A DNA stretch of 23,099 nucleotides from a virus, in IMG/VR virus record IMGVR_UViG_3300020457_000106, positions 1 to 23,099 of that record; one strand, given 5' to 3'. The notes beneath the pieces were generated by a model, which did no database searches, had not been told where the DNA came from, and saw only the letters and a list, made by a program, of their open reading frames with translations. Below, one piece after another: positions 8,844 to 23,099 of this stretch. A program made the position numbers and the translations under genes. Within the stretch, counting starts at the first letter, position 1. Every line of letters starts with the position of its first letter.

Positions 8844-9839
8844 CTAGTTGAATAATGCTAAAGTAGTATTTTGACTTGCAAGTATTTTTGAAGTTTGATC
8901 TGGAGTAATTTTAAATCTTGCTCTACTACAAGTATTACAGATCAATTTTTTCTTTTGTTTAGAATACATTTTATTATAAATCAATTTGTGTTCGTCCTGT
9001 AAATTTTTCCATACTTTTTCGATACCATCTGTAAAAACATTTCCATAATTTGTTAATTTTGTAGCATCATCACAACAAAGTACAGCAGTCCCGTCGACTA
9101 ATATTTCTATTCTTCTTAAAATTTTACCCATATCCATTACACATCCTTGCACAAATTGATCCTCATTGATAGCAAAGTTTTTTGATTCGGTCCATACTCC
9201 GTCTCCCTGTGACATCCTATTATGCAACCACCCTTGTTTTATTTTTACTTTACCTAAAGTGTAATTTAAAAATTCTTTTTTCAGTTCCGTTGCTTTAGCG
9301 TCAGATATAGGTCTATCTAGAGCATCCTTGATTCCAATCCTCATGAGTTGAGATACTTCTGGGTATTTGTTCTTTGCATTGATAAATCTTTTCTTGGTAA
9401 CTTCCCAATTTACACCCATGTACTTTTTAATATCTTCTGCGTTTATTCCAATAATAGATATATTCATTTTTTTTACAAGATGTCTATACTTGCTTATAAT
9501 TTTACAATTTTTATCTGTAAAAGAAATTCCGTTTGTTGTGATTGTTACCTGCATTTTGTTTTCGTTTGCTAGTTCTAAAATTAATTCCAAGTCAGGACAT
9601 ACCAAAGGATCAGAAAATCTCCATGGTTGAACGTGTGCTGTCCATGGCCTAACTTTATACTTTGTAAGTATGTTTGCAAAGTCTGTCATTAATGATCTTA
9701 TTTGTTCAGTTGACATTTTTTTGCCTCTATATTCTTTACTTTCTCCAAGCCAAGAGTAAGGACAACAATAACATTTTGCATTACACAAATTGATTGGCTC
9801 GAAAGATAGTTCTGTTGGTATAGGCAATAATGGGTACAT
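8844..9839 (-). CDS. Radical SAM/SPASM-domain protein
   Basis: This 331-aa protein has the radical SAM 4Fe-4S motif CNAKCYCC, which reads as CxxxCxxC with Cys19, Cys23 and Cys26, directly after the first strand (ELSFEPINL). ITTNGISF follows later. A C-terminal SPASM/twitch-like region carries a Cys in VQGCVM, then ILVDGTAVLCCDD, YGNVFTDGIEKVW and CNTC near the end, as in peptide- or protein-modifying SPASM enzymes. It would use SAM and iron-sulfur clusters for a radical modification, and the substrate is unknown. It lies alone on the minus strand within late genes, with a late motif (AATAAATA) ending 7 nt before its ATG and no SD, so it should be transcribed late. It could modify a small phage or host peptide or a virion protein. 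Confidence 0.9.
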   Translation of the reverse strand: MYPLLPIPTELSFEPINLCNAKCYCCPYSWLGESKEYRGKKMSTEQIRSLMTDFANILTKYKVRPWTAHVQPWRFSDPLVCPDLELILELANENKMQVTITTNGISFTDKNCKIISKYRHLVKKMNISIIGINAEDIKKYMGVNWEVTKKRFINAKNKYPEVSQLMRIGIKDALDRPISDAKATELKKEFLNYTLGKVKIKQGWLHNRMSQGDGVWTESKNFAINEDQFVQGCVMDMGKILRRIEILVDGTAVLCCDDATKLTNYGNVFTDGIEKVWKNLQDEHKLIYNKMYSKQKKKLICNTCSRARFKITPDQTSKILASQNTTLALFN

Positions 9840-10467: not shown

Positions 10468-11310
10468 ATGTCAAAAACGGTAAGAAGTTCACAAGATATT
10501 ACTTTAAAAGCAGGTGCAGGATCTGGTGGTTCGCACAGGATCACTCTCGATGCAAAAGATGTGAGAATTCCTGGAAACCTATCTGTTGATGGAACACAAA
10601 CTACTATCAATTCCACTACACTTACTCTTGAAGACCAATTCATGGAAGTTAACAGAAATAACTCCACAGCAGGAACAGAAGACTCGGGAATATTTTTCAA
10701 TCAAGGATCAAGCAACAATCAAATATTTTTCTTTGATGCAGATCAAAACGAATTTGTTATAGGTCAAACAACACACGGATCAACAGTAAACACAATTTCA
10801 AATATTACTCCAGGACAAATTAAAATTGCGACAACTCCAGCACAAGGTGACCATGCCGCATCAAAAAGTTATGTGGACGCACAGGTATCAGGTGGTGGAT
10901 TCAGTATAGGATTTAGAGGTGATGACTCGGCAGTAGTTGCAGTTACTTCCGGAAACTCAGTACATATTGCAGGAGCAACAAACTTATCAACTGCGGCCAC
11001 TGAAGCGGACACAGTAACAATAACACTGGATTCAGACCTTACAAATATCACTTCAATTACATCAGATTCATCTAATGGAAATTTGACTTTAAAAGCAAAT
11101 GGAACTGGTGATATTGTAGTAAATGACACATTAACGTTTTCAAATGCGGCAAGTACTCCAACTGCATCAGCAGTAACAAAATTATACAACAAAACAGCAG
11201 GTGGTGGTGGAACTGGCCTGTATTTTAACAACTCAAATATCAGTTCTGGTACAGAAGGAGAACTGATAAGTAAAAGTAAAGCAACGGCATTAGCCATTGC
11301 ATTAGGATAA
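10468..11310 (+). CDS. Tail-fiber-like virion protein
   Basis: This 280-aa Ser/Thr/Asn/Gly-rich beta protein carries at residues about 35-64 the module GNLSVDGTQTTINSTTLTLE and onwards to VNRNNS. That module recurs in three other proteins here. It is followed by GIFFNQGSSNNQIFFFDADQ (compare GIMINRG...LYWDESNDKF in the 1221-aa protein) and by AASKSYVDAQV, a pattern seen in phage fibers. The C-terminal part has LTLKANGTGDIVVND repeats of fiber type. It is likely a fiber or baseplate-attached adsorption protein. The start codon has no SD and a late motif ends 8 nt before it. It is followed closely (7 nt) by the next structural gene. Confidence 0.75.
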   Translation: MSKTVRSSQDITLKAGAGSGGSHRITLDAKDVRIPGNLSVDGTQTTINSTTLTLEDQFMEVNRNNSTAGTEDSGIFFNQGSSNNQIFFFDADQNEFVIGQTTHGSTVNTISNITPGQIKIATTPAQGDHAASKSYVDAQVSGGGFSIGFRGDDSAVVAVTSGNSVHIAGATNLSTAATEADTVTITLDSDLTNITSITSDSSNGNLTLKANGTGDIVVNDTLTFSNAASTPTASAVTKLYNKTAGGGGTGLYFNNSNISSGTEGELISKSKATALAIALG

Positions 11311-11317
11311 AAAATAT

Positions 11318-11632
11318 ATGGCGATAACAAATTTTCAAGTAGCGGCAACAACAGGCTCAGCGGCCTTTACTGCATCTGCGGACACGGCTGTGACTGTAAT
11401 TTACATCACAAACAAAACAGATGGCGACGGTACTGTTGACATATATGTTACTCCAAATGGTGCATCAGTTAGTGCAAATCATCTAATTTATTCACAACTT
11501 ACTATTAAAGCAAGAGACACTTATATTTTAGATACTGAGAAACTAATATTAGAAACAGGTGCCAAAATTTATATAGTAGCACCAGACTCGGCGGCACAGT
11601 TCAACGCAACGATTTCAACTATAGGATTATAA
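11318..11632 (+). CDS. Small beta-sandwich virion protein
   Basis: This 104-aa protein begins MAITNFQVAATTGSAAFTAS, then VIYITNKTDGDGTVDIYVTP and a C-terminal strand block ending in FNATISTIGL. The alternation of hydrophobic strands and Thr/Asp/Asn turns suggests one compact beta-sandwich, like the C-terminal domain of the 843-aa fiber downstream. It is probably a virion decoration or fiber accessory protein. It lies 7 nt after the preceding gene and 4 nt before the next, so the three form one transcript. No clear SD is present. The function is inferred from shape and context. Confidence 0.7.
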   Translation: MAITNFQVAATTGSAAFTASADTAVTVIYITNKTDGDGTVDIYVTPNGASVSANHLIYSQLTIKARDTYILDTEKLILETGAKIYIVAPDSAAQFNATISTIGL

Positions 11633-11636
11633 TCTC

Positions 11637-12056
11637 ATGGGTAGATATGTAAAAAACCCACAACTAGTACAAGGTGGATCCACTGGAGTAGGTAATGTTA
11701 TTCCTGTTGGAACTACATCACAAAGGCCTGCAACATCATCAGCAGGATCAATGAGATACAACTCAACTCTTAATATGTTAGAATTCCATAACGGTACTGA
11801 ATATGTTCAAGTAAGAGGTGCTGTAAACGGACAACATCCAGTTACAGTTGATAATTTTACGTTAGATGGTTCAACGACTGCATTCACAATGAGTTTGACT
11901 CCAAAACATGAAAGAAATATTTTAGTGTTCATGGAAGGGGTATTTCAAAAACATAGTACGTATTCAGTTTCATCAAACACACTTACCTTAACACCATCAT
12001 ATCCAGCAGATGCAACTAAAGTTGTAACTGTTATTCACGGTTTAGATTTTGTTTAA
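11637..12056 (+). CDS. Short fiber/attachment protein with two shared fiber modules
   Basis: This 139-aa protein opens MGRYVKNPQLVQGG. It then has GTTSQRPATSSAGSMRYNST (the GTTAQRP-RYNST module found in three other places here). A C-terminal module follows, with DGSTTAFTMSLTP, RNILVFMEGVFQ, YSVSSNTLTLTP and ends in HGLDFV. The same C-terminal block closes the 344-aa protein and precedes the tail of the 843-aa fiber (DGSSTVF, VxIDxVMQEP). It is therefore a minimal version of a reusable fiber end. Its stop abuts the stop of the minus-strand fiber-like gene with no terminator between. Confidence 0.75.
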   Translation: MGRYVKNPQLVQGGSTGVGNVIPVGTTSQRPATSSAGSMRYNSTLNMLEFHNGTEYVQVRGAVNGQHPVTVDNFTLDGSTTAFTMSLTPKHERNILVFMEGVFQKHSTYSVSSNTLTLTPSYPADATKVVTVIHGLDFV

Positions 12057-12977
12057 TTAGATTGGAGATACGTTTCCAATTTCGCACCAAGTTCCAGGTG
12101 CACCAGACTTAACACATACCCATCCTAAAGTTTTTCCGGGTTCAGGTTTTGCATTCCAAACAATATCCCCTTGCTCATGATTGCCATTTGATGGCATAGA
12201 ATTTGCATAAGAATGAGTTTGTCCTTGATATCTTATTGCACCTGCAACTTCTAAATCTTCTTTGGGTGCTTTGACTTTTATTCCAATTTTATTGTCATGT
12301 GAAACAATTAATGTTGGTTCTCTGTTTGTACCTATTGCAAATTTATCAGATGTGTTTGTGCCTATGAATGGTGTATTTCCAACGACATCAAAAACTATTT
12401 CTAGACCATCTTTTGCAATTCCTAATACACCGCCAGGCGTTTCAACATTTATTCCAACTCTGCCTCCTTCGACAGTAAAAATATCTGCAACATTAATTTG
12501 CTTTAGGACACCTACTTCTGTTAGTTTTGATGATTTGACAGAATTTCCTAACCTATCTCTCCATAAAACTTCATTTCCACCTATTCTCACAGAGTTAGAT
12601 AACTCTAAATTTGTTGCGTTGGCAGTACTATAATGTAATGTATCACAATTAATTTGTCCTTTGATGTGTATATCATTTTCTACAGTAATTTTGTCATCGG
12701 CAATAGTAAGTTTTCTCTCAGAAGCATCATCTTTTATACCAGTTGATGCAAAAGTAGTAATTGTTCCACCATCTATTTTGTCGCCTGATACTTCGTTGTC
12801 AAAAAGGTCATTATTCCGCGAAGACAACTTTTCTAATGTTTCGTTTAATTTTTTTTCAGTCCAGTCAAGACGAGTTTGTAGGCTATAATTGTCACTAGAT
12901 AACTTGTCAAATCTGGCTTTTACTGCCTTTTCTACAAGTTCTTTGACTACTTCGTTAATGCTGTTTTCTATGGACAT
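12057..12977 (-). CDS. Minus-strand fiber-like protein with N-terminal coiled coil
   Basis: This 306-aa protein has a charged helical, coiled-coil-like N-terminus (about residues 1-60, including LQTRLDWTEKKLNETLEKL). It then has beta-rich fiber segments GTITTFASTGIKDD and ITVENDIHIKGQINCDTLHY, and two copies of a VGINVETPGG / IGIKVKAPKEDLEVAGAI motif that resembles the RIGIGTDSPG element of the MAIxRIxG proteins. It ends with GDIVWN, GWVCVKSGAPGTWCEIG, a C-terminal pattern seen on phage fiber and host-binding proteins. It is read from the opposite strand to the surrounding fibers. An exact T4 late octamer TATAAATA ends 6 nt before its ATG, with no SD. It is likely an alternative or accessory receptor-binding protein. 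Confidence 0.8.
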   Translation of the reverse strand: MSIENSINEVVKELVEKAVKARFDKLSSDNYSLQTRLDWTEKKLNETLEKLSSRNNDLFDNEVSGDKIDGGTITTFASTGIKDDASERKLTIADDKITVENDIHIKGQINCDTLHYSTANATNLELSNSVRIGGNEVLWRDRLGNSVKSSKLTEVGVLKQINVADIFTVEGGRVGINVETPGGVLGIAKDGLEIVFDVVGNTPFIGTNTSDKFAIGTNREPTLIVSHDNKIGIKVKAPKEDLEVAGAIRYQGQTHSYANSMPSNGNHEQGDIVWNAKPEPGKTLGWVCVKSGAPGTWCEIGNVSPI

Positions 12978-12983
12978 TAATGA

Positions 12984-12991
12984 TATTTATA
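12984..12991 (-). promoter_or_regulatory. T4-consensus late promoter (TATAAATA), minus strand
   Basis: Exact T4 late octamer on the minus strand, followed by TCATTA and the ATG of the minus-strand fiber gene. The predicted leader is about 1 nt. There is no SD. Confidence 0.75.
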
Positions 12992-13016
12992 GTGTTGTTT
13001 TGAGCGTCTAGAATAA

Positions 13017-13024
13017 AATAAATA
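13017..13024 (+). promoter_or_regulatory. Late-promoter-like motif (AATAAATA) before giant fiber gene
   Basis: Ten nt separate it from the ATG at 13035. The predicted leader is about 5 nt, with no SD. It is divergent from the minus-strand promoter at 12984-12991, with 25 bp between the two octamers. Confidence 0.55.
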
Positions 13025-13034
13025 ATTGTTAGTT

Positions 13035-16000
13035 ATGGCAATACAGCGAATACCAGGTGAATTATTACAATCTAATCTAACACGTAGTGGTGTGGATTTG
13101 GCGTTTGAAACGAACTTACTATACTTAGATGTTAGTAACGGACGTATCGGTATAGGTACGGACTCTCCTGGAGCATTCAAACTGGATGTAAACGGCACAG
13201 CACGTTTTCAAAATAATGTAACAGTTAACGGTGACCTAACCGTAACTGGCTCAACCACAACTGTAGATTCTAAAAATTTATCAGTTGAAGACAATATTCT
13301 TACACTAAATTCAGGCTCAAGTACAGCCACTTCCGCAGGTATAATGATCAACAGAGGATCTGCAGGTAACCCGGCTGTTTTATATTGGGATGAATCAAAC
13401 GATAAGTTCAAACTTGTAACAACAACATCAGATGGATCAACAACTTCTACCATAACTGACTCCGCATTCGCCAAACTGGCAGGTGCAGATCCAACTGCCG
13501 CTGACGACTTTGTGACCAAAAGATATTTTGAGGCAAATGCCGCTGGCGGAAGTGTTGTTGGAACAAATGTGACGGTCGGTACACCTGCCGACTCTAGTTT
13601 TGGTGATGGTGCCCTTGTAAGTTTAGGTTCAGCATCTTCTGTAACAGATGCATTAGACGACCTAAATGAAACAATGGAAAACATCAGAAACAATACATAT
13701 GTTAAATCTGTTGACTTCACTGCTGACGTCACGGCAGGCTCCGCCGGTCTTACTGTAACTCTTACCATAACAACAGTAGGTGGGGGAGCCAGCAGATACA
13801 ACATTGATTGGGGTACAGGTGAAACACCAACAAATGCTACCACGGATACAACTCCGTCACACACATATAGTTCAAATGTCAACTCGCCATTTACAGTAAC
13901 GGTAAGGGCATTCAATCATTCTGCTACTTCAGGATCAGCAGGATCGTTTGCAGAAAAAACTAGAGCAAACTTTATAACAATATTCACAGCACAACCGGTG
14001 CCTAACTTCTTCATATACGCGGCACCATCGGGAGGATCACCGATTACTAAAGCGGATAATGGTGCAACCGTATATTTAGAAAACACAACAACTAATACTT
14101 CAATGGCATCAGTAACTTATGATATAGATTGGGGCGACAGTTCTGAAAACTCTATTGCAAGTGATGGCGCCGCAGGTGGTGTAGGAGGAGGAAGACTTGC
14201 ACACACTTATACTAATAGTGCAGGTGATGATGGATCAACAATTGGTACAGGTACTGGCGATACAAGATACTCACCTAAACTTACATTGAGAACACACACA
14301 ACAGCAGACCCATCAGTGATACCGGCAAATGCACAGAAAAACTTTGATGTGTATTCTACTCATACCGCTCTTTACTCGGTTGCAGATTCTACTGTTAGAG
14401 GAATTAATGAAGAAGCAACATCAGGATTCCCTGTAACATTTACTAATAACACAGCAACTAATCCAGGTCCGCAATCAACCTTTACTGGTAACGTTTACAG
14501 TTGGAACTTTGGTGAAGGTGCAGGAAATCAAAATGTCAATGTTGGTTCAAACGCAAGTGGTGACACAAATAGAACTATTTCAAACACGTTCAATTTGTCA
14601 TCAGGACAACAAAATGCAGGTACAACTGTAACTTATACTACTTCTTTAAGTTTGGCAAACGGACATAGTACATCACCTTTCGCGGCTGATATGAAAATTA
14701 TTGTTGAGCCTGATGTTAGAGCAAACATTTCTGGTTCCGCTCCTATTGTTTCTACGAAAAGTGGAGATAATGCAAGAGACTTATACGATGTTACTGACCT
14801 AGATGGAGCCAACAGAGCATTAGTTAATTTCACAAATACTTCGCAACACGCAGATGATTACACATATGATTTCAAAGATGACTCGAGTGATACATTAAGT
14901 ATAGTAGAAGATGGATCAACTGCAGGTGTAGTTGGTGCAAACTTACAAAAAAACTTTGCAGGTACAAGTGCAGGAAACTTCACAACTAGATTTAGAGCAC
15001 ACGGAACACCAGACACAATTGAGCAAGACGACGAAGAAACAATAATTTTCACTATGAATTCAACTCCTAGTGCACCAGCAAATCTAAGCACAAAAAGTTT
15101 AACATTATCAGATTCAGCACAAGGTATAAATCCACATCTATGTGCAAATTTTGATGATGCTACTGGTTCAGCGCCAACATTGGCCGCAGGAACTTCTCTA
15201 GAATCATCTACTGCAAGACGTTATACAAGTGGTACAATAGATACAAACACAGCATCAAACTTTTTAACAAATAGTTGTAACGGAACAGGTTCTAATGTAA
15301 ACCAAACTGTTACAGCAAATATAAATGGTAGTGCCAGCGGTGCTAGAACTTTTACTACATCTGAGGGTGGTGCTAACAACAGTACTTTCACAAAACTTGT
15401 TATCACTAATCACAGAGATGCAGATGAGATTGGTGCGTTCCCTCAAAGATTATTTTTAGTTGCAACTGCAAAAATTACACAGGCACTTACTGATTACTCT
15501 ACTGGATTGAACGCTCAAAGAATTGAGAGTTCGGTAGGAGGTAACACTGGTTACGTACACGTGGTCAGAGACCTACTTACTGGTTCACCAACAGCATCTA
15601 TAGGATCTGTAACGCAGAATGCGGCAGGAAATTTAAGATATATTTCTGGTGTACCTTACTACAACGACGGTTCTCCAAGTTTGACAGTAACAGGATCGAC
15701 TGTGGCCAACTTCACAGGACAGGCATATCAAGATGCTTCAGATCCAGTTGAAATAGATCCAGGTACTAACCATGAAAGTACGTCTGGAAACATTATCAGT
15801 AACTTAGGTTTCACTTATGCAAATATAGACGGTGCGTCAACAATGTTAAGCAGTGGTATACCTGTAAAAAATACTGGAGTAGGCAGTGCATACACATTAG
15901 GAGCACTCACAGTACCTCTAGTAAACACACAAAGACGTTCAATTCAAAGTATTAAGATGAGAGCAAAGAACTGCAACGGTACAAGTGGTTATTCAGAAAA

Positions 16001-16700
16001 TGCCACAAAAGTGCAGATGTATTCAAATTCTTTATTAACAATGGACAACGAACAGGGAGGTATTACAGTTTCTGATTCATTAGGAGCAACTTTCGATGAT
16101 GATGCAAAACGTATATTTGACTTTGCTGGTGACACAACAGACACTCCATCCTATAATGGATCAACAAATTTCTATACAAACAATTTGTTTACAGGTGCTA
16201 AAACAGTTGAAGGAACAAGAGAAGCCATTGCAAGATTTGGAACTATAAAACATTTCACAACAGATTTAAGCAGTGGTTATCTACCAGTAGGTCCTGATCT
16301 AAACACAGGCAGATCGGGTGCTCAGTATTACACTTTTGCATTTAGAAGATCAACTGTATCTCAATTTTCAATAACGCTTTCTGGTAAGGTATCAGGTGCC
16401 TTTATTGCTTTACCAGGTTCAGGAACAGACACATCATCAGGAGCAAACGGTTGGTTAGATCTATCAACTCAATATAACGGTGCGGGTCAACCAGGTTCAG
16501 GAACTGGAGGAAATGGTTCAGATGGTGTTGCTAAAACAGGTGGAGATAGAATAATTGATAACACAACATATTCTTCTCAAAAATTTGATGTAACTTTAGG
16601 TACAGAGAGTATGTCTAATTCTACAGGAAACGTTTGTCTTGTTAGATTTAAAATAGAATCAGGAGATAGTATCACAGCACTATCAATAGGAACAGTATAA
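13035..16700 (+). CDS. Giant virion adhesin with four PKD-like repeats
   Basis: This is a 1221-aa protein. The start is set at ATG 13035, giving MAIQRIPGELLQSNLTRSG, because two other proteins here begin with the same MAIxRIxG block; a TTG at 13026 in frame is less likely. The N-terminal anchor (residues 1-60, ending RIGIGTDSPG) is followed by the GDLTVTGSTTTVDSKNLSVE module (66-94). Next come four PKD/Ig-like repeats, each with a Y-x-(I/W/Y)-(D/N)-(W/F)-(G/K) strand, at about residues 256, 362, 488 and 609; the first two keep a clear HTY strand. The remaining ~500 residues are unique, beta-rich and likely receptor-facing. PKD folds are common in surface proteins that contact glycans. It is likely a long side or tail fiber. 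The stop overlaps the next start (ATAATG). Confidence 0.8.
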   Translation: MAIQRIPGELLQSNLTRSGVDLAFETNLLYLDVSNGRIGIGTDSPGAFKLDVNGTARFQNNVTVNGDLTVTGSTTTVDSKNLSVEDNILTLNSGSSTATSAGIMINRGSAGNPAVLYWDESNDKFKLVTTTSDGSTTSTITDSAFAKLAGADPTAADDFVTKRYFEANAAGGSVVGTNVTVGTPADSSFGDGALVSLGSASSVTDALDDLNETMENIRNNTYVKSVDFTADVTAGSAGLTVTLTITTVGGGASRYNIDWGTGETPTNATTDTTPSHTYSSNVNSPFTVTVRAFNHSATSGSAGSFAEKTRANFITIFTAQPVPNFFIYAAPSGGSPITKADNGATVYLENTTTNTSMASVTYDIDWGDSSENSIASDGAAGGVGGGRLAHTYTNSAGDDGSTIGTGTGDTRYSPKLTLRTHTTADPSVIPANAQKNFDVYSTHTALYSVADSTVRGINEEATSGFPVTFTNNTATNPGPQSTFTGNVYSWNFGEGAGNQNVNVGSNASGDTNRTISNTFNLSSGQQNAGTTVTYTTSLSLANGHSTSPFAADMKIIVEPDVRANISGSAPIVSTKSGDNARDLYDVTDLDGANRALVNFTNTSQHADDYTYDFKDDSSDTLSIVEDGSTAGVVGANLQKNFAGTSAGNFTTRFRAHGTPDTIEQDDEETIIFTMNSTPSAPANLSTKSLTLSDSAQGINPHLCANFDDATGSAPTLAAGTSLESSTARRYTSGTIDTNTASNFLTNSCNGTGSNVNQTVTANINGSASGARTFTTSEGGANNSTFTKLVITNHRDADEIGAFPQRLFLVATAKITQALTDYSTGLNAQRIESSVGGNTGYVHVVRDLLTGSPTASIGSVTQNAAGNLRYISGVPYYNDGSPSLTVTGSTVANFTGQAYQDASDPVEIDPGTNHESTSGNIISNLGFTYANIDGASTMLSSGIPVKNTGVGSAYTLGALTVPLVNTQRRSIQSIKMRAKNCNGTSGYSENATKVQMYSNSLLTMDNEQGGITVSDSLGATFDDDAKRIFDFAGDTTDTPSYNGSTNFYTNNLFTGAKTVEGTREAIARFGTIKHFTTDLSSGYLPVGPDLNTGRSGAQYYTFAFRRSTVSQFSITLSGKVSGAFIALPGSGTDTSSGANGWLDLSTQYNGAGQPGSGTGGNGSDGVAKTGGDRIIDNTTYSSQKFDVTLGTESMSNSTGNVCLVRFKIESGDSITALSIGTV

Positions 16701-17734
16701 TGGCTATAACAGACGCAAAGAAAATTGATTATCTCTGGAAAAAAGTTGGTTACGGTGCAACCAAAACAGATACTAACGCGGCCAAGGCGGCACCCAACGA
16801 AGCCATTGCATCTCCATTATTATTAAGAGGTGATAAAACTTGGAACCAAGCAAGTTCAATTCCTGCAACACAACCAGGAGCAAGTTCGGGTGTAGTTACA
16901 GTTTATCCTGCTTCGGCACCAACTGAAACTACTGCTGATGCAACAGCAACAGCAAACAGAACCTGGAAGACAGGATTAACAGATTACATACCACCAGAGT
17001 TTGGTGCAACATACGGAGTAAAAGTTTATATTCACACATCGGGTGATGCCGGCAATGCCGCTTCGTCAGGTACAAGAGTGTTTCCTGGAGGTTCTGGAAA
17101 CAACGATGAATTTTTCTTTGATTACCAATCTGGTGTCTTACATTTCATAGGAACTAACTTACCTAATGGCGTAAACTTTTCGGGTAAGTCTGTTTATATT
17201 TGTGGTGCAAGATATACAGGACAAATAGGATTACAAAATCTTTCGACTGGTGGATCTATAGGTGACTTAACAATCACTGGGTCAACAATTTCTGCCCCAT
17301 CAAATGCAGATATAACTTTTGACAATGCTGGTACAGGTGGATATGTATTTGAAGGTACATCTTCAATAACAATTCCAAAAGGTACAACTGCACAAAGACC
17401 ATCAGCGGCAGAAGGTGTGATGAGATTCAACACTACAACAGGTAAATTTGAAGTTTCGGAAGATGGATCAACATTTACTGAACTAAGAACTGAACATACT
17501 TCTCAGGAAGTTTCAAAAGATGTTTTTACAGGTGATGGTTCATCTACTGTGTTTACATCACCACACGTTGCTACACAACCTGAAAACTTAATTGTGTACA
17601 TCGATGGAGTCATGCAGGAACCTTCTGAGAGTTATACCACGGACGGATCAACATCGTCAATTACAATAAGTGAACCTCCACACATGGGAGCAAGAATTGT
17701 GATCATGTCTGGCTTCTCTGAAGCACAAACTTAA
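16700..17734 (+). CDS. Virion structural/fiber protein with shared C-terminal end modules
   Basis: This 344-aa protein begins MAITDAKKIDYLWKKVGYGA and continues with SPLLLRGDKTW. This opening is typical of a conserved structural protein family of marine T4-like phages. A middle domain contains YIPPEFGATYGVKVYIHTSG and FFFDYQSGVLHFIGTNLP. The C-terminal part has GTTAQRPSAAEGVMRFNTTT and then DGSSTVFTSPH, NLIVYIDGVMQEPSESY and GARIVIMSGF, the same end modules as in the 139-aa and 843-aa proteins. The start overlaps the stop of the giant adhesin gene, implying coupled translation and possible assembly with it. Its stop overlaps the stop of the convergent minus-strand gene by 4 bp (TTAA). Confidence 0.8.
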   Translation: MAITDAKKIDYLWKKVGYGATKTDTNAAKAAPNEAIASPLLLRGDKTWNQASSIPATQPGASSGVVTVYPASAPTETTADATATANRTWKTGLTDYIPPEFGATYGVKVYIHTSGDAGNAASSGTRVFPGGSGNNDEFFFDYQSGVLHFIGTNLPNGVNFSGKSVYICGARYTGQIGLQNLSTGGSIGDLTITGSTISAPSNADITFDNAGTGGYVFEGTSSITIPKGTTAQRPSAAEGVMRFNTTTGKFEVSEDGSTFTELRTEHTSQEVSKDVFTGDGSSTVFTSPHVATQPENLIVYIDGVMQEPSESYTTDGSTSSITISEPPHMGARIVIMSGFSEAQT

Positions 17735-18105
17735 ACTACTGAAAATCCTGTAGGTTGATAAACTAAATCAAAACTTTTAAATTCTCCATTTAAAGAATTA
17801 ATTGTTCCAATTTTTGGATGTATTTCCCATTCGAACTCTGGTTGTCTTATAATAAATTCATAGAGATCCTGTCCCGAAGAAAATTGTATTTTTACTCCAG
17901 CAACACTATGTTTATAATCAACTTTGTAAGGTTTTTTTAAAATTAATTTTGTTACATTTTCAACTTTTTGCATAAAATGATTCATTTCTTGCATGATGTC
18001 TGGTCTCTCTTGTAATGTTTCTACGGATCTGTTACGAGCAAGTTGTGGCCACTGCAACGTAACTGTATATTTGTAAAAAATTTCTTTATTTTTTTTGTTT
18101 TGCAT
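17731..18105 (-). CDS. Unknown protein, second gene of minus-strand pair
   Basis: I place the start at the ATG at 18105 (MQNKKNKEIFYKYTVTLQWP), giving 124 aa. A more upstream ATG at 18135 would overlap the preceding gene by 50 bp, and an AGGA lies about 11 nt before the chosen start. The overlap with the upstream gene is then 20 bp, suggesting coupling. The protein is basic in its first half (NRSVETLQERPDI, KLILKKPYKVDYKH), with strands VAGVKIQF and FKSFDLVYQP near the end. I do not recognise a family. There is no membrane segment or signal. It converges on the 344-aa structural gene with a 4-bp stop overlap and no terminator. Confidence 0.65.
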   Translation of the reverse strand: MQNKKNKEIFYKYTVTLQWPQLARNRSVETLQERPDIMQEMNHFMQKVENVTKLILKKPYKVDYKHSVAGVKIQFSSGQDLYEFIIRQPEFEWEIHPKIGTINSLNGEFKSFDLVYQPTGFSVV

Positions 18106-18631
18106 ATGCAGTATATTCCTTATAATCCAACACATTTAAATTTTTTATTGAATCAAACAATTTTATCTTGTTGACATTTGGCTTTCTAACATAATAGAAT
18201 TTTATGATTGGATTGTTTTCAGCAACTTTCATGAATAAATCTCTTTCTTTCAAATTTTGTATATCGTATCCAAAACAATACACAGCAGAATACTCACACC
18301 AACAAGCAAGTAATAAAGAAAGCAGTTGAGAAGAACAATTATCTACGTCTATATCTATAGTTGCATTGTCAGAAAAACTAGGCACATATTCAATATTATC
18401 AAAAAACATATACTTCTTGTACAATGCTAGGGAGGTAACTATTGGTATGTTCCTCAAATTAGGGGAATTTAACATATTTTGCAGTTCTAACTCATTATTT
18501 GTTACTGCGTATCTGGAACCAGGTGATTTATTGGTCAAACCAGACACTATTAACTCTCCGTGTTTAAGACAGTTTCTAGTGTCATAGTCCACCGTTAAAT
18601 TTCCAGTTATAGATATATGCGTATATTTCAT
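18086..18631 (-). CDS. Unknown protein, possibly divergent sugar-transferase fold
   Basis: This is a 181-aa protein. Residues 99-124 (CSSQLLSLLLACWCEYSAVYCFGYDI) have the same layout as SSGPTALKYAADHKPKTIYI plus LGFDY in the GT42/DUF115-like gene at 2886: a paired Ser, a helix, a hydrophobic strand and G-(Y/F)-D. The N-terminus has a strand-loop HISITGNLTVD where that family has a glycine loop, but the GNGxS signature is absent. It may be a divergent or inactive member, and this is weakly supported. It leads a two-gene minus-strand island and has a late motif (CTTAAATA) ending 10 nt before the ATG with no good SD. An unrelated hypothetical protein is equally possible. Confidence 0.6.
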   Translation of the reverse strand: MKYTHISITGNLTVDYDTRNCLKHGELIVSGLTNKSPGSRYAVTNNELELQNMLNSPNLRNIPIVTSLALYKKYMFFDNIEYVPSFSDNATIDIDVDNCSSQLLSLLLACWCEYSAVYCFGYDIQNLKERDLFMKVAENNPIIKFYYVRKPNVNKIKLFDSIKNLNVLDYKEYTAYAKQKK

Positions 18632-18641
18632 GCCTTAATGG

Positions 18642-18649
18642 TATTTAAG
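18642..18649 (-). promoter_or_regulatory. Late-promoter-like motif (CTTAAATA), minus strand
   Basis: The motif is followed by C. Ten nt lie between the last A and the ATG at 18631, so the predicted leader is about 5 nt. The only purine run (AAGG) is too close to the ATG to be a good SD. Confidence 0.6.
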
Positions 18650-18670
18650 CATACAAATTTGGGTGGTTAC

Positions 18671-18678
18671 AATAAATA
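18671..18678 (+). promoter_or_regulatory. Late-promoter-like motif (AATAAATA) before 843-aa fiber gene
   Basis: The motif is followed by T. The predicted start near 18684 gives a 44-nt leader that includes the 14-nt perfect palindrome at 18699-18712 and the SD AAGGAG. It is divergent from the minus-strand motif at 18642-18649. Confidence 0.6.
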
Positions 18679-18698
18679 TGTTACATATTATATAATAT

Positions 18699-18712
18699 AA
18701 CTTTCGAAAGTT
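18699..18712 (+). repeat. Leader palindrome AACTTTCGAAAGTT
   Basis: A 14-nt perfect palindrome that ends 1 nt before the SD AAGGAG (18714-18719) of the 843-aa fiber gene. In RNA it could fold as a short hairpin next to the ribosome site. As DNA it could be an operator. Confidence 0.6.
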
Positions 18713-18727
18713 TAAGGAGAAAATAAC

Positions 18728-21259
18728 ATGGCAATAGGACGTATATCAGGACAGATGTTAAAAGCCAATCTCGAGAGATCGGGAACGGATTTAGCGTTTG
18801 AAACAAATCTATTAGCCTTAGACGTGACAAACTCTAGAGTGGGTGTTGGGACAGCGAGTCCAGCCACTACATTCCACGTTTCGGCTACAGATGCAATAAG
18901 ACTTCCATCAGGAACGACTGCACAAAGACCTGGTTCACCATCAAACGGTGATATCAGATACAACTCCACTACTTCTCAAATCGAAGGATTCAGCAATGGT
19001 CAATTTAGATCAATGGTTGGATCTGGTATCAGCAACGTTGTTGAAGATACTACGCCTCAACTAGGTGGAGATTTAGATATTAATGGAAATGCAATAGTTT
19101 CAACATCAGATGGAAACATAGCAATTACACCAAATGGAACTGGCGAAGTTGACATATCAAAAGTTGACATTGACAGCGGTGCTATCGACGGAACAGCAAT
19201 TGGAGCCAACAGTGCTTCAACTGGTGCTTTTACAACATTATCAGCAACAGGTAACGTTGTTCTTGGAGATGCAACAGGTGATTCAGTAACAATTACAGGT
19301 AACTCAATTGTATTATCAAATACACCAACAGTTACAGGTACCTTTGCAGACTTAGGTACTGTAACAACAGTTGACATCAATGGTGGTTCAGTTGACGGTG
19401 CAGTAATTGGTGCTAACTCAGCCGCGGCAGGTACATTTACAAACTTAACAGCAAGTGGTACAACTATTTCAATCACAGATTCAAATGGATCTGGAACGAT
19501 TGATGGTGTTAACATTGGTTCATCAACAGCAGGATCTGGAGCATTCACAACATTAGAAACTTCAGGTGCATTGACAGTTGGTGGTAACTTAACAGTTAAC
19601 GGTACAACTACAACAATCGATTCAGCAACATTAACAGTTGAAGATCCGATGATTCAATTAGCGAAGAATAACTCAGGTGGAGCGGCGAATGCCTTTGACC
19701 AAGGTTTATTCTTTAACAGAGGATCATTATCAAATGTTGTCTTCCTATGGGACGAATCCGCAGACGAATTTGTTGCGGCAGTTTCGGCTTCAGAGGATGG
19801 AACAACAGCAGGTAACGTAACACTAGACAGTTATGCAGGACTACACGTTGGTGTACATAAAGCATCAGAAGTACAAACTGGTACTATTAAAGCGGCTGAC
19901 GGTACAGCAAGTTCAACAATAGCAAACTCAACAGGTGTACACACAATCGCTAGTTCAGTATTAACAACTACTGACATTAACGGTGGTACAATTGATGGAG
20001 CAACTATTGGTGGATCATCTGCAGGAGCAGGTACGTTTACAACTTTAGCATCAACAGGTAATACTACAATTGGTGATGCAAGTGGTGATACAACTACTTT
20101 CAACTCTGCAAGTTGGACACTAGCAAACGCAACTACAATATCAGGTACGTTTGCAGATCTTGGAACTGTAACAACAGCGGACATTAACGGTGGTACAATA
20201 GACGGTACAGCAATTGGTGGTTCATCAGCAAGTACTGGTGCATTCACAACAGTTGATGCATCTCAAGGTATTGACATTCCGGCTGACTCTCAATCATTGA
20301 GAATTGGTGCAGGTAATGACTTTACAGTACAGCACGATGGATCAAACACAGCGATTGCAAACGCAACTGGTAACTTAACAATTACTACTGCGGCAAGTTC
20401 AAGTGTTGTTATTAACGAAGACTCAGCAGATGTAGACTTCAGAGTAGAATCAAACGGTAATACTCATGGTTTATTTGTAGACGCTGGTAACGACAGAGTG
20501 GGTGTAATGACATCTTCTCCAGGTTATGCTTTAGACGTATCAGGATCAACTGATGCACTTAAATTACCTACAGGTAATACAGCACAAAGACCAACTGCAA
20601 CAGCGGGTATCATCAGATACAACTCTCAAACTTCTAAGTATGAGGCTTGTAACGATGGATCTACTTACGTTGAATTAGCGATAGCAGGTGATGTACCTTC
20701 TATTTCTAAAGTGAGTGCAACTGGAGATGGATCATCTACAGTATTTGGTTCATTCTTTGGATCAGCACCAGAAACAGTAAACAACGTTTTAGTGTTTATT
20801 GACAACGTTATGCAGGAACCGACTGAGAACTACACAGTATCAGGAACTACAATTACATTTACTTCTGCTCCACACAGTGGTGCAAGAATATTTGCTTTGA
20901 CTGGTTTTGATAATACTGCGTTAGCATCAAGCGGTGTTGCAAGAACACAAACTTCATCAGTATCATTTGAATCAACTGCTACTACGATCATGAGTTTCAA
21001 CCAAGCATCGTACAGATCAGCAGAATTATTGATTACAATAACTGACGCGGCAAACACTGAGTACTCAGTACAAAAAGCAGTTGTTATCCATAACGGATCA
21101 ACAGCATTTGGATCAGTGTATGCTGTAACAAATACTGGATCTACTGATTTAGCAACTATCACATTCAACCATGATGGTTCTAACACAATAGAAGTTAAAG
21201 CGACTAGTACAGGTGGCGCACAAACGGCACTAGTACAGTACTCTTTACAAGCAGTATAA
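18728..21259 (+). CDS. Large tail fiber protein with internal repeats
   Basis: This 843-aa protein begins with the shared anchor MAIGRISGQMLKANLERSG, then RVGVGTASP. It has GTTAQRP...RYNSTT (about residues 60-85), and five copies of a unit near (T)DINGGxIDGxxIGxxSAxxGxFTTL beginning near bases 19163, 19370, 19498, 19970 and 20175. The NLTVNGTTTTIDSATLTVED module (about 285-316) is followed by FFNRGSLSNVVFLWDESADE. Next are a second GNTAQRP...RYNSQT, and the DGSSTVFGSF / VLVFIDNVMQEP / GARIFALTGF end module. A final beta-sandwich closes the protein. These are trimeric-fiber style repeats. SD AAGGAG is present, a terminator follows, and its own late motif precedes it, so it is a monocistronic late gene for a host-binding fiber. 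Confidence 0.85.
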   Translation: MAIGRISGQMLKANLERSGTDLAFETNLLALDVTNSRVGVGTASPATTFHVSATDAIRLPSGTTAQRPGSPSNGDIRYNSTTSQIEGFSNGQFRSMVGSGISNVVEDTTPQLGGDLDINGNAIVSTSDGNIAITPNGTGEVDISKVDIDSGAIDGTAIGANSASTGAFTTLSATGNVVLGDATGDSVTITGNSIVLSNTPTVTGTFADLGTVTTVDINGGSVDGAVIGANSAAAGTFTNLTASGTTISITDSNGSGTIDGVNIGSSTAGSGAFTTLETSGALTVGGNLTVNGTTTTIDSATLTVEDPMIQLAKNNSGGAANAFDQGLFFNRGSLSNVVFLWDESADEFVAAVSASEDGTTAGNVTLDSYAGLHVGVHKASEVQTGTIKAADGTASSTIANSTGVHTIASSVLTTTDINGGTIDGATIGGSSAGAGTFTTLASTGNTTIGDASGDTTTFNSASWTLANATTISGTFADLGTVTTADINGGTIDGTAIGGSSASTGAFTTVDASQGIDIPADSQSLRIGAGNDFTVQHDGSNTAIANATGNLTITTAASSSVVINEDSADVDFRVESNGNTHGLFVDAGNDRVGVMTSSPGYALDVSGSTDALKLPTGNTAQRPTATAGIIRYNSQTSKYEACNDGSTYVELAIAGDVPSISKVSATGDGSSTVFGSFFGSAPETVNNVLVFIDNVMQEPTENYTVSGTTITFTSAPHSGARIFALTGFDNTALASSGVARTQTSSVSFESTATTIMSFNQASYRSAELLITITDAANTEYSVQKAVVIHNGSTAFGSVYAVTNTGSTDLATITFNHDGSNTIEVKATSTGGAQTALVQYSLQAV

Positions 21260-21276
21260 TAACTAAACAAGATTAG

Positions 21277-21306
21277 AAAAGGGCGGCTTTATGTCGCCCT
21301 TTTTTT
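21277..21306 (+). terminator. Rho-independent terminator after 843-aa fiber gene
   Basis: The stem AAAAGGGCG (21277-21285) pairs with CGCCCTTTT (from 21295), with a 9-nt loop and a long T tract. It has the same GGGCG core as the other terminators. Confidence 0.92.
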
Positions 21307-21346
21307 GTGACTTTTTAATAGTACAATACAAAATCACTTAAAAATT

Positions 21347-21354
21347 GGTAAATA
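21347..21354 (+). promoter_or_regulatory. Late-promoter-like motif (GGTAAATA)
   Basis: The motif is followed by T, between a terminator and the 337-aa fiber gene. The predicted start near 21360 gives an 80-nt structured leader. The two bases before the core (GG) are atypical. Confidence 0.5.
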
Positions 21355-21356
21355 TT

Positions 21357-21434
21357 ACTGTTAAACATTTCGTTTGACAGTTTAACAACAATGATGTTGT
21401 TAAATTTAAATTAATCAATCATGTGGGAGACATG
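21357..21434 (+). repeat. Three successive leader hairpins, the last with the SD in its loop
   Basis: Hairpin A is ACTGTTAAAC (21357-21366) with GTTTGACAGT (21372-21381), 10 bp with one G-U pair. Hairpin B is TTTAACAACA (21381-21390) with TGTTGTTAAA (21395-21404), 10 perfect bp with loop ATGA. Hairpin C is CATGT (21420-21424) with ACATG (21430-21434), with GGGAG, the likely SD, as its loop. The ATG is at 21440. Confidence 0.75.
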
Positions 21435-21439
21435 GAACC

Positions 21440-22453
21440 ATGACAGCAAGAAACTTTAGAGTACATAACGGTCTTGATTGCGGTGACGTATCTATAAATG
21501 CATCTTCAGGTGCATTAACAGGTGTCTCTGCTTTGACGCTAGATAACACATCGGCGCCAGATGCAGACGCAAAATTGGCCAACAAAAAGTATGTTGATGA
21601 TCAGTTAACTGCTAAAACTAGCCTAGTATCTGGATCAAACAACGTAACAGTTTCAGGTTCATCAGTATCATTAGATATCGGTGGAACTGATCAACTTATC
21701 GCGACTGCAGGACTAGTAAGAATTACTGGTAACTTAACAGTTGACGGTACAAGAACTGAACTTAACACTGCAACACTATCAGTTGAAGACAACATGATAG
21801 AAGTTAACAGAAACGTATCAGCGGCTTCTGGTATGCCAAACTTCTCTGGTTTAAAAGCCAACAGAGGTGCAACATCATCAGCAACTGAAGAAGATCTTTT
21901 CTGGGTTTGGGATGAAACATTCGCAGATGACGGAACAACTGTACACGGTAACGCAGGTGGTGCCTGGACAGCATACAGATCTGATGACGACTTATCTAAC
22001 AAAGATTTAGTTGACATTAGAGCAAATGTTGTACACGCAAGAGCAACGTCGGCGGCATACGCGGACGTGGCGGAGCGTTTCGAAGCAGACGCTCCTATGT
22101 CAGAAGGTGCAGTAGTAACACTAGGTGGATCAGCAGAAATTACTGAGTCAGTTGGTGAATTAAACAACGAAGTATTTGGTGTTGTTTCTACTCAACCAGC
22201 ATTCATGATGAATGCAGAAGCAGGTAACAGCGAATCTCATCCTTTTATAGCAATGACAGGTAGAACTCCAGTGAGAGTTACAGGTGCAGTTGCAAAAGGA
22301 CAAAGATTAGTAAGTTCATCTGTAAAAGGTACTGCAAGAGCAGTAACAGAAGGTGAAACTATCACTCCATTCCACGTAATCGGTAGAGCACTTGAGGCTA
22401 AAACTGATGCAGGAATTGGTTTAGTTAACGCAGTAGTTAGAACAAACAACTAA
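21440..22453 (+). CDS. Tail fiber protein with conserved C-terminal head domain
   Basis: This 337-aa protein begins MTARNFRVHNGLDCGDVSIN, then KLANKKYVDDQL, a short fiber pattern. It carries the shared GNLTVDGTRTELNTATLSVE module at residues about 97-125 and then LFWVWDETFADDG. The last ~130 residues start at YADVAERFEADAPMSEGAVV and include GVVSTQPAFMMN and GRTPVRVTGAVAKGQRL. This C-terminal domain type occurs on phage fibers, sometimes near intramolecular-chaperone or peptidase_G2-like regions. I do not see proof of self-cleavage. The start ATG at 21440 follows GGGAG. A second ATG at 21432 is out of frame. Codons at the domain border (22045-22080) are unusually GC-rich. A terminator follows. 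Confidence 0.85.
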   Translation: MTARNFRVHNGLDCGDVSINASSGALTGVSALTLDNTSAPDADAKLANKKYVDDQLTAKTSLVSGSNNVTVSGSSVSLDIGGTDQLIATAGLVRITGNLTVDGTRTELNTATLSVEDNMIEVNRNVSAASGMPNFSGLKANRGATSSATEEDLFWVWDETFADDGTTVHGNAGGAWTAYRSDDDLSNKDLVDIRANVVHARATSAAYADVAERFEADAPMSEGAVVTLGGSAEITESVGELNNEVFGVVSTQPAFMMNAEAGNSESHPFIAMTGRTPVRVTGAVAKGQRLVSSSVKGTARAVTEGETITPFHVIGRALEAKTDAGIGLVNAVVRTNN

Positions 22454-22477
22454 TTTAAAGCATTAAACTAATATTTT

Positions 22478-22509
22478 AAAGGGCGGGTTTTTACTCGCCC
22501 TTTTTTTTT
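22478..22509 (+). terminator. Rho-independent terminator after 337-aa fiber gene
   Basis: The stem AAAGGGCG (22478-22485) pairs with CGCCCTTT (22496-22503) across a 10-nt loop and is followed by a run of T. It has the same GGGCG core as the other terminators. Confidence 0.92.
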
Positions 22510-22514
22510 AGGCG

Positions 22515-22522
22515 TATAAATA
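22515..22522 (+). promoter_or_regulatory. T4-consensus late promoter (TATAAATA)
   Basis: Exact T4 late octamer followed by C, just after a terminator. The predicted start near 22528 gives a leader of about 79 nt. It contains a weak stem CGGTC (22536-22540)/GACCG (22555-22559) and the SD GAGGAG before the ATG at 22607. Confidence 0.8.
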
Positions 22523-22606
22523 CTATTACTGCTGTCGGTCGGCAACGATAAAGAGACCGTGTATGGCGTTTGCTGTACTAACATAATTATAGAGAGGAGC
22601 CAACAT

Positions 22607-23099
22607 ATGGCCATTGGTCGTATATCTGGGTCGGTCCTAAAGTCTAACTTGACTAGAAGTGGAGTCGACCTTGCGTTTGAAACAAACCTATTATACCTTG
22701 ATGTAACTAACTCACGAGTAGGTATTGGCACCTCGGAACCAGCAACAACATTTCACGTAAACGGAACAATTAGAGGATCAAGCATTAATGTTAATAATGC
22801 TTACACTCTTCCTACATCTGATGGTACAGCAGGACAGCAACTCACAACCGACGGAGCCGGAACTGTTACATGGGCAGACAAAGATGGATCATCAAATATT
22901 TCTTTTTCAGGTACAACAATGGCATCAGATGGAGCACTCACTCTAGATGCAACAACAGACATTACACTAGACGCCGGCGGTGCAGATATATTATTAAAAG
23001 ATGATGGTACAGCATTTGGTGGTTTCTCAAACTCAAGCACAGACCTTGTAATCAAAGCAGGTACTACACCAACAACAGTTTTAACATTATCAAGCAGTG
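22607..23099 (+). CDS. Fiber protein of MAIxRIxG family, 3' truncated by window
   Basis: The frame is open from the ATG at 22607 to the window end (164 codons and one base). It starts MAIGRISGSVLKSNLTRSG and continues with DLAFETNLLYLDV and RVGIGTSEPATTFHVNGT, the anchor block also seen in the 1221-aa and 843-aa proteins. It then has YTLPTSDGTAGQQLTTDGAG, TVTWAD, ASDGALTLDATTDITLDAGG and ADILLKDDG, typical of phage tail fiber shafts. The SD GAGGAG lies about 7-8 nt from the ATG, with its own T4-consensus late promoter. The C-terminal part, which would show receptor-binding modules, is beyond the window. Confidence 0.85.
   Translation, partial: MAIGRISGSVLKSNLTRSGVDLAFETNLLYLDVTNSRVGIGTSEPATTFHVNGTIRGSSINVNNAYTLPTSDGTAGQQLTTDGAGTVTWADKDGSSNISFSGTTMASDGALTLDATTDITLDAGGADILLKDDGTAFGGFSNSSTDLVIKAGTTPTTVLTLSSS

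Follow-up and report, generated by a model that had tools for sequence, protein, structure and literature searches.

Fiber genes of a marine T4-superfamily phage share modules that descend by gene slot and include a gene pair that may encode a two-piece fiber

The fiber block and its shared modules

The stretch of DNA analysed here, the 23,099 bases of the virus record IMGVR_UViG_3300020457_000106 (hereafter the window), comes from a marine T4-superfamily phage and contains its fiber block. T4-type head genes lie at its start (portal gene at 901, capsid gene at 6310), and a block of fiber genes runs from 9972 onward, after the major capsid gene. The best named relatives of the portal protein come from jumbo phages, namely Sinorhizobium phage Phosso (51.5%) and the PA5oct-type phages (49%). 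Seven of the fiber genes, named by their start positions, are built in part from a small set of shared modules, and two of the seven, 13035 and 16700, overlap as a pair. Among close relatives the modules descend by gene slot, and we propose that the pair encodes one fiber whose two pieces would be joined end to end through the families phrog_8578 and phrog_9417.

All module copies lie on the plus strand and, except where noted, were located with both blastp and profile hidden Markov models (HMMs). The N-terminal anchor (MAIxRIxG...RIGIGT) is common to genes 13035 (13035..13196), 18728 (18728..18889), and 22607 (22607..22768, in a gene that extends past the window end), with 3/3 pairs aligned by blastp at 69-80% identity over 45-57 residues from residue 1 (E values of 6e-16 to 6e-25). 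The NLTV module is present in genes 10468 (10498..10797), 13035 (13167..13454, with HMM borders that overlap the anchor), 18728 (19508..19813), and 21440 (21662..21955), and is recovered by blastp in 5/6 gene pairs at 27-47% identity (E 2e-8 to 1e-15); for the remaining pair, 13035/18728, blastp returned no separate NLTV alignment, and both copies were detected by HMM. Genes 11637, 16700, and 18728 share a TAQRP module (11697..11816, 17369..17488, and 20561..20680, respectively) followed by a DGSS end module (11799..12053, 17465..17731, and 20660..20941), with 3/3 pairs aligned at 33-46% identity (E 1e-12 to 2e-30); the DGSS copy of 11637 is strongly diverged. Within the fiber genes, the one Pfam family to pass its cut-off is DUF4183, in the DGSS module of 16700 (26.0 bits vs. 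a cut-off of 25.1). Judged from these alignments, the likeness is beyond chance at the protein level, and the first-pass annotation, made from the sequence by itself, had placed all three sets of modules in the right genes. Beyond the copies that it listed, 18728 holds two TAQRP modules (the first, at 18899..19018, was found by HMM), an internal RIGIGT-like stretch, and an "INGGxIDGxxIG" repeat in four copies by HMM (matches beginning at 19148, 19355, 19955, and 20162) or five by repeat listing. These repeats lie around the NLTV module in a variable middle region (19148..20272), delimited by HMM and conservation.

Two further likenesses between modules were set aside. An identity of NLTV with TAQRP, prompted by a MAFFT misalignment of a fused gene described below, was rejected by profile comparison, in which the hhalign score was 8.9, whereas 100 column-shuffled controls reached 14.5 at most and averaged 8.3. 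A likeness between TAQRP and DGSS (97% probability over 25 columns in profile comparison) is in all likelihood artefactual, caused by module borders that overlap.

Descent of the modules by gene slot

Module order was compared across 31 genomes, including the window, that were hand-picked from the search loci and are mostly fragments without some of the slots. The order is nearly constant: NLTV in slot 10468; TAQRP-DGSS in 11637; anchor-NLTV in 13035; a terminal TAQRP-DGSS in 16700; anchor-TAQRP-repeats-NLTV-repeats-TAQRP-DGSS in 18728; NLTV in 21440; and the anchor in 22607, where about half of the genomes have an extra TAQRP. Deviations comprise repeat numbers, some missed or weak HMM hits, the genomes L198 and L129, and a clade with a fused gene; save for the last three, no differing module combinations between close relatives were encountered in the 31 genomes. 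For 405/409 module copies, the nearest module in another genome sits in the same slot (anchor, 107/108; NLTV, 101/104; TAQRP, 117/117; DGSS, 80/80). The four off-slot copies belong to L198 (one anchor and two NLTV modules) and to L129, whose single NLTV module in 22607 is the sole one of its kind, so that a same-slot neighbour is impossible.

The shared modules form the stable ends of these proteins, and the variation is located in the unshared middles, mainly those of 18728 and 22607. Residues 1-90 of 18728 are covered in 29/29 orthologs and residues 421-480 in 8-9/29 (three of the 29 being truncated by contig ends), and residues 91-330 of 22607 are covered in only 1-5/26 orthologs. A difference of this kind is seen between L201 (about 14181-14447) and L203 (about 17950-17976), two contigs at least 99.9% identical elsewhere, whose 22607 genes differ in a stretch of 80 residues close to the end; the flanking bases differ too, which favours replacement of an allele over a simple deletion, unless the assembly is in error. 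A 51-residue repeat difference in 22607 (L116 vs. L117) and one of 4 residues in 18728 (L114 vs. L116) may likewise be assembly errors.

The first-pass annotation had also read recent recombination between fiber genes from a 24/25-base match between positions 19583-19607 and 21728-21752, which lie in the NLTV modules of 18728 and 21440, respectively. The match itself is exactly as described and is in frame in both genes. When the proteins were kept fixed and synonymous codons were redrawn from the window's own usage in 1,000 trials, 9.6% of the trials produced a match of at least 24/25 bases between some pair of the seven fiber genes, and 0.1% produced one between 18728 and 21440 specifically, a pair picked after the fact; the DNA match thus does not clearly appear to exceed chance. 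Within single genomes, the two copies of the 25-base stretch differ by 2 mismatches in L108 and L109, which are the closest relatives of the window, and by 5 in L110 and L111. The 2 mismatches in L108 and L109 imply that the likeness predates the split from these two genomes, and the difference between the window (24/25) and L108/L109 (23/25) comes down to one synonymous base. Each copy is, moreover, nearer to its own ortholog than to its paralog: the NLTV module of the window's 18728 shares 151/161 bases with its L108 ortholog and 51/61 with the window's own 21440 module, and the latter shares 149/154 with its L108 ortholog. The claim of a recent event at these positions is therefore not borne out.

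Several observations weigh against descent by slot as a complete account. The 18728 homolog of L198 (3452-7357) holds three NLTV modules, two of which have their closest counterparts in slot 21440 elsewhere, and is the clearest transfer of modules between genes observed here; the extra NLTV module of L129 is also nearest to slot 21440. In L110, genes 16700 and 18728 share an exact run of 35-39 bases, the one clear within-genome tract outside L198 in the DNA comparison. Exact slot-to-slot matches of at least 23 bases are in excess within genomes (3/449, vs. 8/12,803 between genomes, L198 excluded; Fisher P 0.005), with P values of 0.09, 0.01, 0.13, and 0.03 at word lengths of 17, 20, 26, and 30. 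The TAQRP module of slot 11637 has a lower median identity to its orthologs (0.41) than to its best paralog in the same genome (0.49), although its nearest neighbours are nonetheless in slot. Finally, among the slot 13035-type proteins of a wider and more distant set (n = 91), HMMs find the anchor by itself in 43 and anchor-NLTV in 30; at this range NLTV often goes undetected in the slot, whose module content does change. Going by these comparisons, exchange between slots is real but rare.

The phrog_8578/phrog_9417 gene pair

Gene 13035 ends in a phrog_8578 domain (15066..16688, plus strand; profile match and fold model), and gene 16700 begins with a phrog_9417 domain (16700..17269, plus strand; profile match). 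Residues 677-1219 of the first protein match positions 161-650 of the 652-position phrog_8578 profile (E 6.5e-58), which spans the C-terminal three quarters of that family, and residues 1-191 of the second match positions 1-199 of the 231 in phrog_9417 (E 1.7e-31), so that both proteins belong to their families, the second from its first residue. The stop codon of 13035 overlaps the start codon of 16700 in the sequence TAATG (16698..16702, plus strand). PHROGs annotates both families as of unknown function. Tblastn searches with 13035 and 16700 retrieved the phiCbK-type phages of Caulobacter and Brevundimonas, Salicola phage SCTP-2, and Sinorhizobium phage Phosso, with no cyanophage among the 50 and 49 records, respectively. 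With the phiCbK proteins as queries, the identical 52 of 50,697 phage records match either domain, with 77 places for each domain, and Agrobacterium phage Atu_ph07 joins the list. Many of these records are near-copies of one another, and together they represent a handful of lineages. Both families are present in 13 of 18 chosen records and neither in the remaining 5.

Across metagenomic virus contigs, contigs of metagenome-assembled genomes (MAGs), and named phages, with loci that partly overlap, we found 243 adjacent phrog_8578-phrog_9417 pairs and 0 phrog_8578 C-termini without phrog_9417. Nine phrog_9417 copies are without a partner, 8 at contig or stretch ends and 1 internal (L166). Scans with phrog_8578 alone gave adjacent pairs in 80/80 best loci and those with phrog_9417 in 77/80, the remaining three lying at contig ends. 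In the 116 junctions left after removal of near-copies, phrog_9417 begins at residue 1, 2, or 5 in 116/116, and phrog_8578 ends 1-6 residues from the stop in 115/116; the exception is Phosso, whose phrog_8578 match was partial and, under a wider HMM, reaches to 2 residues before the stop. The TAATG overlap recurs in 87/116, and every 1-base overlap reads TAATG. Among the ORFs (open reading frames) that hold both domains, none was seen with phrog_8578 ahead of phrog_9417. The parts outside the two domains are far more diverse. Upstream of phrog_8578 there are 89-841 residues in the largest group (n = 91; 3 further proteins fall outside it), which carry TAQRP in 5 proteins and no recognised module in 13, besides the anchor alone and anchor-NLTV counts given above. 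Downstream of phrog_9417 there are 41 to 3,644 residues, with TAQRP-DGSS, alone or with more, in 89/107. In two contigs, L245 and L244 (G023 and G024), phrog_9417 begins ORFs of about 3,800-4,060 residues that resemble a giant fiber-like protein, and NLTV modules are present in the cluster of downstream parts that includes L245, in several copies in some of its members. The pair also turns up on contigs binned as a Rickettsiales MAG (MED657; L331-L333); L332 agrees in length and coordinates with the virus contig of L255, and these are probably phage contigs binned into the MAG.

In eight named phages, assigned with HMMs widened with those same proteins, every phrog_8578 found is C-terminal and every phrog_9417 N-terminal. 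Six of the eight (CcrSC, CcrColossus, Bajun, Gurke, Phosso, and Atu_ph07) have the gene order [x-8578] [9417-8578] [9417-y], that is, with a middle protein that bears both domains. Atu_ph07 has two pairs.

A one-gene counterpart occurs in L116, L121, and L125, where a single gene of 335-622 residues replaces 13035 and 16700 and keeps the anchor and NLTV of the former and the TAQRP-DGSS of the latter; L232 and L233 encode a full-length relative at 75% identity. By alignment, the stretch missing from the fused gene of L116 and L125 corresponds to 13524..17257 (plus strand; borders approximate), i.e., the body of 13035 plus the start of 16700. Neither family was found in the records of L116, L121, L125, and L233 (0/4), whereas the control L108 holds both; all are fragments. 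In a midpoint-rooted quick tree of 27 genomes, L116/L121/L125 form one clade nested among pair-bearing genomes (fork support 90). Under this rooting the nesting favours loss of the pair and would make it the simpler reading, but 5/18 of the chosen records are without both families.

Other features of the block

Three genes within the block are on the minus strand: one at 12057..12977, whose C-terminus resembles phage tail fiber proteins by profile match, and two small ones at 17731..18135 and 18086..18631, whose orientation was compared in relatives. A minus-strand gene with Radical SAM and SPASM domains above the Pfam cut-off (8844-9839) separates the capsid gene from the fiber block. Between the portal and scaffold genes, the protein at 2886-3500 matches phrog_30607, of unknown function, strongly and an alpha-2,3-sialyltransferase family weakly (phrog_4603, E 9e-5). 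Hairpins resembling intrinsic terminators (GGGCG...CGCCC, then a T run) are found at 21269-21306 and 22470-22507 and are 74% alike; the first matches, at 91-95%, stretches directly 3' of the capsid gene in several relatives.

A two-gene fiber and its alternatives

These observations can be brought together in a single model. The anchor, NLTV, TAQRP, and DGSS modules would be old, duplicated structural frames, presumably serving as N-terminal attachment and end domains, that descend by slot among close relatives, with variation placed in the unshared middles. Two overlapping genes, 13035 (anchor-NLTV-...-phrog_8578) and 16700 (phrog_9417-TAQRP-DGSS), would together make one fiber, in which the C-terminus of the first chain (phrog_8578, the proximal side of the joint) holds the N-terminus of the second (phrog_9417, the distal side). 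Placing the pair into a fiber gene would thus give a two-piece fiber; a middle protein of the type phrog_9417-...-phrog_8578 would add one more segment to it, a possibility suggested by the gene order in the six phages; and the L116/L121/L125 clade would have retained just the anchor-NLTV...TAQRP-DGSS parts in one gene. The order [x-8578] [9417-8578] [9417-y] would be the one expected of a chain of segments with one type of joint. We infer the end-to-end joint of 13035 and 16700 from gene order only, and consider the combination of slot-wise frames with a two-gene fiber joined through phrog_8578 and phrog_9417 to be probable. More tentatively, and with rather less conviction, the two families may be halves of a general fiber coupler in marine T4-superfamily, phiCbK-type, and other jumbo phages, where bricks added or lost would change reach and partners and the joint would stay constant.

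On the other side of the scale, tight linkage is equally expected of any two-gene structural operon, and the contact between phrog_8578 and phrog_9417 is a putative one, the structure models being of single chains. The phrog_8578 model is of good confidence (predicted local distance difference test, pLDDT, 88), yet Foldseek found no solved relatives of it with E < 0.001; among predicted viral structures, its best relatives come from phages, including CcrColossus and Atu_ph07. A phi812 baseplate chain that topped a second-look comparison (Z 6.5) was too weak to use, and the profiles of both families gave no meaningful match to the sequences of solved structures. Co-divergence speaks weakly for a joint: by Spearman correlation, phrog_9417 follows the C half of phrog_8578 (0.56) more closely than it does the TAQRP (0.41) or DGSS (0.36) of its own gene, but the C half of phrog_8578 correlates as highly with DGSS (0.58). 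The linkage also has the exception in L166 (7466-8737), where a diverged phrog_9417 follows a 705-residue ORF in which phrog_8578 is undetectable and which possibly represents a different proximal partner.

Among alternative explanations, the first-pass annotation's own, an active system recombining host-range modules between fiber genes, is very improbable. It is favoured by the modules being shared at all, by the rare inter-slot modules of L198 and L129, by the exact run in L110 and the within-genome excess of exact matches, and by the difference between the near-identical L201 and L203. However, that differing stretch is none of the kit modules; the shared modules are the conserved rather than the variable parts; their copies have, with the four exceptions named, their closest counterpart in the same slot of another genome; and the 24/25 match is common to L108 and L109 save for one synonymous base. 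An invertible segment likewise finds no support, since no long inverted repeat was listed flanking the fiber genes, and the three minus-strand genes keep one orientation throughout the relatives among the matches listed; no dedicated recombinase search was made. What stands of the idea of a shared kit is that the fibers share modules and that these moved between genes at some time; ongoing switching, and with it a system for mixing host-range parts, finds no footing in a nearly constant module order. That annotation had named fixed combinations across all relatives, together with an absence of DNA identity peaks at module borders, as what would speak against it. The combinations are nearly fixed, with L198, L129, L110, the exact-match excess, and the many distant 13035 relatives in which NLTV was not found on the opposite side.

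Under a second explanation, which we regard as unlikely although it deserves serious weight, the phrog_8578 and phrog_9417 proteins are neighbouring virion components (e.g., base or neck parts) that bear fiber modules and have no mutual joint. A constant operon linkage would look identical in this case, and in phiCbK the pair comes directly after the head genes. Yet it leaves unexplained why phrog_8578 is always C-terminal and phrog_9417 always N-terminal, why a middle protein begins with phrog_9417 and ends with phrog_8578 in 6/8 named phages, and why a single gene retains the outer modules of both. A third explanation, that the fibers of the block sit on the head and not on the tail, is compatible with the joint and seems unlikely as well. 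The position of the block after the major capsid gene agrees with it, as does a gp23-type capsid gene 0.9-7.2 kb upstream of the pair in 38/116 dereplicated stretches, a missing capsid gene being uninformative where the stretch is short. The phiCbK pair is flanked by capsid genes on one side and by gp76 on the other, which the authors on that phage consider the most probable head filament, though this was not conclusively established (PMC3556154); and Atu_ph07, with its two pairs, has whiskers described as mainly capsid-associated in appearance (PMC6102473). On the other hand, the genes in Atu_ph07 and Phosso adjoin genes annotated as tail proteins, and 18728 ends in a C-terminal beta-sandwich (20930..21256, plus strand; structure model and comparison) with the fold of the C-terminal domain of T4 gp9, a tail-side fold in T4. 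Residues 735-843 superimpose on 169-284 of 1qex_A (gp9 ~167-288) with Z 14.1, a root-mean-square deviation of 2.0, 108 aligned residues, and 20% identity; the block of residues 741-840 has a pLDDT of 81-91, in a model with a mean of 56.6 that is low elsewhere. The next structures (Z 11.1 to 7.1) include tailspike tips, and a gp9 C-terminal-type fold has also been reported for RaK2 gp529 (PMC10253068); this modeled fold would thus be no proof of a connector role for 18728.

Comparison with known systems

Modular fibers with variable parts have been described in marine phages (PMC3909814, PMC7029224), and docking by conserved elements is equally established, which makes the module kit itself ordinary. 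The present analysis tells apart two things that the first-pass annotation had merged, namely old frames passed down by slot and a variable part that is real and unshared. A search of titles and the starts of abstracts, with partial coverage of subscription journals and with supplements outside its scope, found no description of the phrog_8578/phrog_9417 pair as a joint or of its one-, two-, and three-gene forms. Should the pair be such a joint, it would mark where the pieces of two-piece fibers meet in many marine and jumbo phages, and would offer a candidate for how the phiCbK genes beside the capsid genes build an appendage.

In phiCbK (Dolichocephalovirinae), gp73 and gp74 are homologs of both domains in the same order, 9 bases apart. 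Unlike in the window, their outer parts are without matches to the anchor, NLTV, TAQRP, and DGSS (HMM, E 0.01), and the virion is of a different type, a prolate siphophage (PMC3556154). A short tail resembling the INGG repeat occurs in one of phiCbK gp074 and the second protein of CcrSC. The phiCbK proteins gp070-gp072 and gp075 were considered and rejected as relatives of 9972, 10468, 11318, or 11637 (best blastp E 0.55, no credible HMM match); a profile labelled f11637 was set aside in this comparison because, with a length of 444 positions, it had evidently drawn in 16700 orthologs, its hits being to phrog_9417.

The host recognition cluster of pelagimyophages and cyanomyophages resembles the block in having a variable fiber region on a conserved structural background but is placed between VrlC and gp14 (PMC7029224), whereas the block in the window follows the capsid gene. 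T4 fibritin offers a parallel, in that its modules were replaced in ancient times and then inherited vertically (PMC3797505), albeit in a different protein; in the window, several paralogous genes share the modules. For the proposed joint, the nearest counterpart is the knee of the T4 long tail fiber, where the distal half, presumably with gp35 and/or gp36, is met by gp34 at its C-terminal end (PMC3004832); in contrast to the window pair, a monomeric third protein, gp35, is located at the T4 knee. In the T4gp10-like anchor-branch systems of G7C, K1-5, Klebsiella phages, CBA120, and RaK2, conserved docking elements also link fibers whose outer parts vary (PMC6872550, PMC10253068). Pfam and PHROGs list no T4gp10-like domain in the 10 fiber-block proteins scanned, of which 18728 has a low-confidence model. 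In the anchor-branch systems, a T4gp10-like domain of one protein receives the conserved N-terminal peptide of another, producing branches, whereas in the window a C-terminal domain would be paired with the N-terminal domain of the next gene, producing a line.

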